Positions 46,196-49,100 of a stretch of DNA of 64,000 nt are shown here, piece by piece. The stretch covers positions 124,001-188,000 of the forward strand of contig OOIN01000041.1 of NCBI GenBank assembly GCA_900323505.1. Direction: 5' to 3'. The position numbers were made by a program, and so were the translations under genes. The notes beneath the pieces were generated by a model, which worked only from the letters and a program-made list of their open reading frames with translations, did not search any database and was not told the origin of the DNA. Numbering within the stretch: position 1 is the first letter of the stretch; every line of letters begins with the position of its first letter. This stretch comes from Ustilago trichophora. Taxonomy: Eukaryota; Basidiomycota; Ustilaginomycetes; Ustilaginales; Ustilaginaceae.

Positions 46196-49100
46196 TTCCA
46201 AATTCTCTTCTTTTGACAATGTCGCTGCCAGTACCGGCAGCGAGTCAGTCTCCTATCCTGTCGCTTCTCCGTCACCAAGAGCTCCCATCATCATCTTTGG
46301 TTCTCAGGGCTCCAGTTTTCTCGATGGCTTCGATGTCATCCTCTCTCTTTCACGTATTCATCCGGAGCTCGCCGCCTTTCTCTCCTGCGCTCTCGATGCC
46401 GTACGCGTTGAGCTGCAAAGCGTCGCTGATCGACACGACGGTACGAATCTTCCCAACTCACAAAGGGAATCCGAGGTAGAGCTGCTCAGTCTCCTTCCTC
46501 CATTCGAGCCTTTCTCCGACTTGAAGACGCTGGTCAACTTTCATCATCGAAACGGCCTCAAAGATCCGGTCATCAATGGCGTGCTCCTATGTCTCCTCCA
46601 AACAGCATACGTCGTCTCGGTCTGCTGTATATCACGTCAGGACGATAACGACCCCGATGATCTGACCCATAGATTCGAGGCAGTCTGGACAGCTATCTCT
46701 CAGCCGTGCTCACACCTTCTGGGCTTCTGTACTGGCGCTCTTTCTGCTTTCACGATTCGACCGTTGGTGGAGAACAGGGTGAACGATCCTGCAATCAGCA
46801 TCTGGGCATATGCACAGGAAGCAGTCAAGGCAATTCGCATCTGCTTTTGGATCAGCCTGCGCTCGGCTCAAGCTCGTCTTCGCCTCACCGGAACACAAGG
46901 TTGCGACACTTCGTCCGACCCTTGGAGCATCGTCATTGCGGTCAAGGATCCAGACTACGTCGAAAAGGTCTACCTGCGTCTATCCAAGCTCAACGAACTC
47001 GACCAACAACGTCCATTGGACAAGCCCGTTTCGCTCGTCGTCACCGCTAGAGCAATCGGCCAGATTTCGATCGGAGGACCTCCTCGGCAGTTGGAGCGTT
47101 TCAAAGCGTATCTCATCGAGCATCTGGGAGTCAAATGTCGAGCCTTTCCTCTGCAAATCTTCTCGCCCTACCATAGTCCAGATCTGGAGACCGAAGCGTC
47201 CCTGGTGATGCTTGACCTCGAGCGCCGTGGTCTTGTCGACGATTCCTCTTTACCACCGAGTCAGAAGATCTTGTGGGAGACAGCAAATGCCAACATTCTC
47301 GCAGAGTCTAGCTTGCGTGGGACTATGCGTGCCCTGATTGGCAGCAATCTCTGTTCAATCGCAGACTGGGACGCGATGATCGACAACCTTGTGTTGCTGG
47401 AAGGGGAGCTACCGGACGCCGCGCCATTGGCTACCAGCACCATTGTCTCCTTCGGTCCCGGATCTAACCTCGCAACTGATCTTAGGAAGCATCTCTCCGG
47501 CCAGTCTGATCAACCTCCTTCAATCGAAACATTCAAAATGCTTGACGTGCCAGCACTTTGTCAAAAGTGGATCTCGTCCAAGAACACATCAGGGCCGATG
47601 CTTCCGCTTCTTCCGCAGCCCGACGTTCACGGCGAAGAAGTCGTCATTGTGTCGATGGCTTGTCGCTTTCCAGGTGAGGTGCGCAGTCCGGAACAGCTCT
47701 GGACATGCCTCGAGACAGGAAGATCCACCGTCACAGAGATCCCGAAGCACCTCTTCGATATCGACGCTTACTACGGCGAAGGAAAGAATCAGACGTCGGC
47801 GAGACACATGCATGCCCTACCAGAGAATGTGGTCAAGTCGATGGATGCCCGACTCTTCAGTATGTCACCCAAAGAGATCGAGCAGCTAGACCCGCAGCAC
47901 CGGCTCGTGATGCTATGCTCGTACGAGGCTCTTGAGCGAGCTGGCTACTCACCCGAGGCCAACTCTCCGTCTTGTTTTGACGGGAAACGCATCGCGGTCT
48001 GCATGGGTGCGAGCTGGGACGACTATCGAGAGAATGCCAGCTGGAACATTGGCAGCTACTTCATTACGGGCAACATCCGCGCCTTCATCCCAGGTCACAT
48101 CTCTTTTTCGCTCAAATGGGAGGGTCCGAGTGTGTCGGTGGACTCGCTTGAATGCTCTGCGGTTTCGGCTCTCCAATGGTCGAGGCGGGCACTTCTCAGT
48201 GGACAGTGCGATGTAGCCTTGGCTGGTGCTGTCAATGTTCTTACGCAGCCGCAAATCTTCATTGCGATGGACAAAGAGGGTATCCTCTCTCGTAGCGGTA
48301 CGAATGCGACATTCTCATCCAAGCTCGATGGCAAAACGAGAGGCGATGGCTGTGGCGTTCTGCTTCTCAAAAGGCGTTCAACCGCATTGCAAGATGGCGA
48401 CAGGATCCTCGCGACTCTTTCAGCGGCTAGGACCACATACCATGGCAAGGCTACGGACGATGAAGGCGTCGCCGCTCGTCAGTCCGACTTTCTCGCTCAA
48501 GTCATGTCCGAGGCCGACATGTGTGCCCGGAACCTTGTGCACATCGAAGCCAGCGGATCTCACTCGCAGCAGGTCGAAGCAATCGAATTCGATTCGTTCG
48601 CTCGGGTGTTGGCAAATCCGAAAGTTGCATCGAAGATGCCACTCAACGGTGGTATCTCTGTCGCAAGCTCGAGACCCAACATTGGAGCAGGAGAAGCAGT
48701 TTCCGCCATCGCTTCCGTGATGAAAGCCGTCTTAATCCTCGAGAAGGGCAGCGTTCCGAGGCAAATCTCCATCGCTCATCCCTCTCTGCTTCAACCCAGC
48801 ATTGCAGCTATTTGTGAAAGCTCGGATCTGTTTGTGCCGACACAAGCACAACTCCTGCCATCATCATGGCGCGAAACAGGGCGCACTGGCATTCTTGTGA
48901 ACAGTCTTGCCACCACTGGGTGTCATGGAGTCGTGTTGGTGCAAGCACCCACAACCGCCGAGGTGTCTTCCTCACAGACTCTGTCGGCTGTCAAATCACC
49001 TTCTCCCGGCGCCGAATGCGCATGGATCTTTGTCCTTTCCGCAAAGACAAAGGATTCTGGCGCGATGCTGAAAAAGGAGCTCATCGACTATCTTCAGCGA

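Follow-up and report, generated by a model that had tools for sequence, protein, structure and literature searches.

Fungal non-reducing polyketide synthases (NR-PKSs) such as PksA and CTB1 carry all their activities in one chain and work as homodimers. In bacteria, the type II ketosynthase (KS) and chain length factor (CLF) are described as partners in an obligate heterodimer, with one KS active and the other inactive and devoid of catalytic residues (PMC12664062). In the smut Ustilago maydis, Pks3 and Pks4 reportedly act as heterodimers that yield orsellinic acid and triacetic acid lactone (PMC10098057). This pair, from the orsellinic acid/melanin cluster, is the nearest known case to the locus described here, which lies in a 64,000-nucleotide stretch of Ustilago trichophora (contig OOIN01000041.1, positions 124,001 to 188,000; hereafter the window) and comprises a polyketide synthase (PKS) gene, subunit A, with a dead ketosynthase (KS0), and a second PKS gene, subunit B, whose 3' end lies inside the right edge of the window.

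Other smut PKSs also bear on this locus. According to the excerpted text of PMC13208730, no homologues of pks3-5 occur in 15 other smut genomes, while pks1 and pks2 of U. maydis (UMAG_06414 and UMAG_06418) are neighbours with homologues across smuts. The excerpt suggests that pks1 and pks2 form one complete system, since the deletion of pks1 alone blocks melanin, and a figure legend lists the starter acyltransferase (SAT), KS, acyltransferase (AT), product template (PT), acyl carrier protein (ACP) and thioesterase (TE) domains as found in the pair, not assigned to each protein. The pks1/pks2 pair is very likely orthologous to A and B; no U. maydis sequence was identified among the A and B sequences compared below. 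In another study, as excerpted, UM04105 of U. maydis and its counterparts in U. hordei and Sporisorium reilianum lack an AT domain and were left out by the authors (PMC5635595).

At the level of motifs, A keeps SAT, two ACPs and TE, and B keeps KS, malonyl transferase (MAT) and PT plus a TE. We consider it likely, on these sequence grounds, that A and B form an obligate two-protein NR-PKS in which A handles loading, chain carriage and release and KS0 would be the CLF-like mate of the KS of B. We also favour, with somewhat less assurance, the broader proposal of a fungal type I counterpart of KS/CLF, in which duplicated megasynthases would have fully split the work and neither would make a polyketide alone: in one, SAT, ACPs and TE would flank a fixed dead acidic KS, and the other would retain KS, MAT and PT but have discarded its ACP and SAT activity.

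The ketosynthase of subunit A

The features of the locus are listed below in window coordinates; C40 is the contig of the window, and the bounds of KS0 and of the MAT remnant, as well as the domain bounds used for dN/dS (the ratio of non-synonymous to synonymous substitution rates), were set by us.

46185..52736, + strand: subunit A gene, SAT-KS0-MAT0-PT0-ACP-ACP-TE, 2183 aa, a single uninterrupted open frame
46293..47174, + strand: SAT domain, residues 37-330 (PF16073, E 4.7e-19), with the GxCxG Cys182 and His330
47634..48854, + strand: KS0 domain, residues 484-890 (PF00109, E 5.1e-60), full KS fold predicted
48150..48152, + strand: E656 at the nucleophile position, followed by Cys657 (alignment)
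48552..48554, + strand: S790, replacing the HGTGT His (alignment)
48687..48689, + strand: A835, replacing the NIGH His (alignment)
49215..49784, + strand: MAT remnant, residues 1011-1200, about 190 aa, no GHSxG and no PF00698 match
50082..51044, + strand: PT pseudo-domain, residues ~1300-1620, PT fold predicted, catalytic His absent
51225..51419, + strand: ACP1, residues 1681-1745, DLGLDSL with Ser1709 (PF00550)
51600..51812, + strand: ACP2, residues 1806-1876, DLGMDSL with Ser1839 (PF00550)
51975..52733, + strand: TE domain, residues 1931-2183, GGWSFGG with Ser2002 and the ANHFT His (PF00975, E 4.7e-13)
63198..64000, - strand: 3' end (TE end) of subunit B, whose gene continues past the window to ~C40:193235

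The sequence-only reading of this locus had claimed that E656, S790 and A835 replace the Cys-His-His of a full-length KS in a long undamaged frame of 2183 codons. This is borne out by phmmer alignment to solved KS domains (norsolorinic acid synthase 8cg4, CurL 4mz0 and mycocerosic acid synthase 5bp1), in which the three residues stand opposite the catalytic Cys, the HGTGT His and the NIGH His with no local gap. The structural motifs said to be intact are present (DPQHR at 569-573, RGDGCG at 719-724), Cys657 does follow E656, one residue off the nucleophile, the frame is open and uninterrupted, and the structure model predicts a full KS fold. KS0 combines the lack of catalytic residues with a conserved predicted fold, as in a KS/CLF-type pair.

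The substitutions are shared. The second copy of subunit A, on the C41 haplotype, is intact and has the same three residues. Among 16 Ustilaginales rows (P0001-P0016, made up of the window protein plus 15 orthologues, with two species represented twice), the nucleophile site is Glu in all 16, the first KS His is always lost (Ser in 14, Ala in 2), as is the second (Ala in 15, Asp in 1), and 207 of the 407 KS0 positions are invariant. Each of the 15 orthologues has the Glu and lacks both histidines; with Cys-His-His in 0/15, the replacement is no product of chance, strain-specific decay or assembly error.

The dN/dS was estimated by the Nei-Gojobori method between the two divergent haplotypes, C40 (window) and C41. 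In subunit A it was 0.082 for KS0, 0.069 for ACP1 and 0.087 for TE, compared with 0.228 for ACP2, 0.255 for SAT, 0.138-0.440 for linker stretches, 0.224 for the whole gene, 0.365 for the MAT remnant and 0.399 for the PT remnant. The mean identity of orthologues to the window protein was 80% for KS0 (15 rows), 83% for ACP1 (14), 78% for ACP2 (14), 66% for TE (12) and 58% for SAT (15), versus 31% and 32% for the MAT and PT remnants (15 rows each). Because its dN/dS is low relative to that of MAT0 and PT0, the dead KS is held by purifying selection, while the MAT and PT remnants beside it drift. The earlier suggestion of selection for a non-elongating role gains support from both contrasts, in dN/dS (0.082 versus 0.365/0.399) and in orthologue identity (80% versus 31-32%). 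A gene in decay or a faulty assembly would account for many sites being lost together, but the same nucleophile residue recurs in the C41 copy and in 15 orthologues, the frame is open, and the ratios for KS0 and the whole gene are low, making this explanation hardly credible; a pseudogene was rejected on dN/dS.

To place these residues in a wider context, we used homologue lists holding the best 120 of 1544, 866 (the search with B) and 638 matches, in which an absence is weak evidence. The 32 A rows are MAT-less sequences chosen among the matches listed. The second KS His is lost in 32/32. An acid stands at the nucleophile site of 22 rows (18 Glu, 4 Asp), none of which keeps the first His; the other 10, the Cys-type rows, have the Cys together with the first His. 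KSQ domains have Gln at the nucleophile and retain their catalytic histidines. The window protein has Glu there, the 32 A rows have Glu/Asp (22) or Cys (10), and both histidines are gone from KS0 along with the Cys, so the analogy with KSQ loading domains drawn in the sequence-only reading is not supported. A KS0 that works as a KSQ-like or otherwise active decarboxylase, making the starter on the ACPs of A, is quite improbable, as none of the 22 acidic rows keeps either catalytic histidine and a SAT with its catalytic motif is already present in subunit A; as a leading reading it was rejected on the loss of both histidines.

A new His is located at residue 793 (48561-48563), three residues past the lost HGTGT His, and is kept in 15/16 Ustilaginales rows and in 5/6 other acidic relatives. 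If the active site had been relocated, Cys657 and His793 would perform the chemistry, and the two residues are present in 16/16 and 15/16 Ustilaginales rows, respectively. However, the six other acidic relatives carry Gly, Thr or Ser at position 657, so that Cys657 is not a conserved replacement and the acid at 656 arose first, and the partner B already has an intact Cys-His-His. A relocated site is therefore very improbable, and the candidate was discarded on the residues of these relatives.

Complementary motifs in subunits A and B

Compared with the fungal NR-PKS order (SAT-KS-MAT-PT-ACP-TE), subunit A has SAT, ACP and TE with their catalytic motifs, whereas the active KS (Cys-His-His), the MAT GHSxG and the PT catalytic His are all missing. 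Its Pfam matches are SAT, both KS halves, two carrier domains and TE, and no malonyl transferase, product-template or dehydratase domain was found at E up to 1. The MAT remnant covers about 190 aa, versus a 320-aa PF00698 match in the partner; GHSxG occurs in 0/32 A rows (a Ser stands in the nucleophile column of 2/32, with the motif absent), and PF00698 matches 1/23 (E 0.0046). The PT His is kept in 15/32 A rows and absent in 17 (P0001-P0016 and P0023; P0015 is a 1430-aa piece), and the PT of subunit A is predicted to keep its fold without this residue. In single-chain models, the predicted folds of the KS, linker, MAT remnant and PT are as in PksA and CTB1.

The remaining domains of A are retained throughout. 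SAT Cys182 and His330 are invariant across 23 aligned A rows, and GxCxG with the SAT His is found in 29/29 rows with the whole motif region. The TE Ser is present in 29/29 rows with that region, and the ACP motif in 31/32, the remaining row stopping before it. Pfam recovers SAT in 23, carrier in 22, thioesterase in 20 and PS-DH in 6 of 23 A rows.

Subunit B (P0121, 1985 aa) is encoded on the minus strand at ~C40:187198-193235 (1198-7235 of stretch L015), with a counterpart on C41, and its gene ends about 10.5 kb downstream of the subunit A gene. Its KS is intact (DTACSSA, HGTGT, NIGHSE), as is its MAT (GHSLGE); the PT His is kept and a TE is present. No carrier domain was found in it, and its N-terminal SAT match is weak, below the Pfam cut-off, and without GxCxG. 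Its dN/dS is 0.043 for KS, 0.142 for MAT, 0.123 for PT, 0.103 for TE and 0.419 for the PT-TE linker. The B rows (the top 25 of 120 listed) agree with this layout: KS Cys-His-His in 24/24 with the region, MAT GHSxG in 25/25, PT His in 22/22, SAT GxCxG in 0/14, and a carrier domain in 4/22 with the region (P0140, P0141 and P0144 end after MAT and were excluded from the ACP counts). A co-occurring partner of shared descent with an active KS exists for KS0. The sequence-only reading had overlooked the dead MAT and PT of subunit A and a second PKS with the complementary set that ends inside the right edge of the window, and with both in view the CLF analogy fits better than that with KSQ.

These data also bear on the idea that A is a trans-acting platform for loading and release (SAT-ACP-TE) that takes chains made elsewhere, with KS0 as an inert spacer and no dimer. 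The retained motifs of SAT, ACPs and TE would suit such a platform, but B has no ACP on which to build chains, and an inert spacer should not match the constraint on ACP1 and TE while MAT0 and PT0 drift. We regard it as unlikely, and the reading of A and B as two halves of one NR-PKS is retained below.

Equal contig size, taken as a proxy for one contig, places A and B together in nine further assemblies beyond the two contigs of our genome: Melanopsichium, Sporisorium reilianum, Pseudozyma hubeiensis, Ustilago loliicola, Sporisorium scitamineum (with a B fragment of 1079 aa that spans MAT to TE), Testicularia, Tilletia maclaganii, Botryobasidium and one more. An acidic A is paired with an ACP-less B in 11 cases (the two contigs of our genome, six pairs on equal-size contigs, and three by species name, in Kalmanozyma, Tilletiaria and Violaceomyces), and a Cys-type A with an ACP-bearing B in three, all on equal-size contigs. 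Violaceomyces palustris has two A-type proteins (P0024 and P0284), one with Cys and NVGY and the other with Glu and NLGA; no B matching its Cys-type A (P0024) is present among the matches listed.

The only strong PKS-type KS matches in the genome were A and B. Five weaker KS places were found, two of them in thiolase frames and a third with a thiolase frame next to it. Of two further KS places, both FAS-like (fatty acid synthase-like), the one scanned is a KS with a phosphopantetheinyl transferase domain. AT matches occur at B, strongly on C6 and C7, where they are probably fatty acid synthase, and weakly on C3 and C5, with none in A. The carrier-domain matches number 25, four being the two ACPs of A on two contigs; 6 of the 21 outside A fall in five checked frames of adenylation or condensation enzymes. 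The assembly (38.8 Mb, 45 contigs) has the PKS locus twice, on C40 and C41, and the two copies differ by a dS of 0.32-0.37 and a DNA identity of 80-89%, a divergence high for alleles. For strain RK089, 20.7 Mb is the size given in the excerpted report (PMC4966473). Given this divergence and the difference in size, the assembly resembles a combination of two diverged genomes, possibly that of a hybrid.

Proposed joint action and history of the pair

If A and B form one synthase, they would dimerise via KS0 and KS. The SAT of A would put the starter onto the ACPs of A, the MAT of B would load these ACPs with malonyl, and the KS of B would elongate the chain on them; the PT of B would then fold the chain, and a TE would release the product, whose best candidate is an aromatic precursor of spore melanin. 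The acidic residue and the lost histidines may bar acyl chains from KS0, leaving one condensing site per dimer, and KS0 would hold the scaffold and perhaps shape the acyl channel.

Several points weigh against this proposal. A and B are not adjacent, as a zinc-cluster-like protein, a nucleoporin and an SOD-like gene (recognized by eye) intervene, so the arrangement does not demonstrate co-regulation. In Tilletia maclaganii, Botryobasidium and one further assembly, B has an ACP and A has the Cys, and the pairing may therefore not be obligate in those fungi. No B named Geranomyces, Thecaphora, Pseudozyma flocculosa or Tilletia horrida appears among the best 120 of 866 matches. A fatty-acid or mitochondrial ACP could in principle meet the need of B for a carrier, and 15 of the 25 carrier-domain matches in the genome are neither those of A nor in a checked frame. 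Finally, other basidiomycete NR-PKSs are described as working without SAT, which is dispensable in them (PMC10401856, as excerpted), so the loss of the SAT motif alone does not force B to depend on A.

The KS tree was built, after masking the three catalytic columns, from 68 rows: 29 of A, 19 of B, 18 from ordinary fungal PKSs and two from bacteria. It leaves out P0010, P0013 and P0015 from the A set and P0123, P0125, P0127, P0131, P0132 and P0136 from the B set. A (29 rows; support 100/100) and B (19 rows; 100/99) are clades and branch as sisters (97/88), both among fungal NR-PKSs in this tree, which includes no CLF. The 19 acidic A rows form one clade (100/99), as do the 15 B rows labelled ACP-less (100/99; P0140, P0141 and P0144 are too short to tell), and one change each, a single event on the tree, accounts for acidic A and for ACP-less B. 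The Cys-type A rows do not form a clade of their own (two changes), with Geranomyces joining the acidic rows (95/86).

With the tree rooted on the two bacterial rows, the simplest reading is that, after one duplication, A lost its MAT and the second His, and B the SAT Cys; later, Cys would have changed to an acid in A and ACP would have been lost from B, along with a loss of PT activity in the A of Ustilaginales. A Cys-type A paired with an ACP-bearing B, followed by an acidic A paired with an ACP-less B, would represent graded living intermediates on a route from homodimer to heterodimer. Geranomyces is a chytrid, and its MAT-less A-type proteins (P0018-P0020) fall inside an otherwise basidiomycete A clade, with no B from this genus among the matches listed; they may reflect either an old origin or a transfer.

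Between the two PKS genes, a 1351-aa protein (53150-57205, - strand) has two CxxCx6C clusters about 50 residues apart and no Pfam match at E 0.001. These clusters recall a Zn2Cys6 factor whose loop is expanded, and the protein is a candidate for regulating the A/B pair. Just past the partner PKS (L015 8816-9724, + strand), there is a protein that, by eye, is like an FSH1-type serine hydrolase.

Comparison with known systems

If our interpretation is true, an iterative type I PKS has divided into two megasynthases that depend on each other and meet at a pseudo-ketosynthase, in parallel with the bacterial KS/CLF but independently of it. This would account for two PKS genes staying near each other across smuts, and for the loss of melanin after losing one PKS in the reported U. 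maydis case. It also calls for caution, as automatic annotation labels both genes as ordinary PKSs. Among the titles and abstract openings listed from the openly licensed PMC subset, we found nothing on KS active-site loss in an A/B pair or on an ACP-less partner, and neither the dead KS nor the missing ACP is mentioned in the excerpts cited here.

Like Pks3/Pks4 of U. maydis, A and B are two smut PKSs; the former reportedly act together, and the latter would do so judging from their sequences. In the excerpted description of Pks3/Pks4, neither KS active-site loss nor an ACP-less partner is described, unlike what is seen in A/B, and unlike pks3-5, for which the survey excerpted above gives no homologues in other smuts, the A/B pair is widespread among smuts. 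A shares the loss of MAT/AT with UM04105, as excerpted. For pks1/pks2, the excerpted text mentions neither a dead KS nor a split of domains between the two, again unlike A/B (PMC13208730).

The resemblance to the bacterial KS/CLF lies in an active KS that co-occurs with a dead one, and by analogy A and B may likewise dimerise. Nevertheless, the bacterial type II proteins are free-standing, unlike the KSs of A and B, which are domains of type I megasynthases, with Glu/Asp at the nucleophile in A. In its domain order and in the predicted folds of its KS, linker, MAT remnant and PT, subunit A is like PksA and CTB1, although NR-PKSs of that type, unlike subunit A, hold all activities in one chain.
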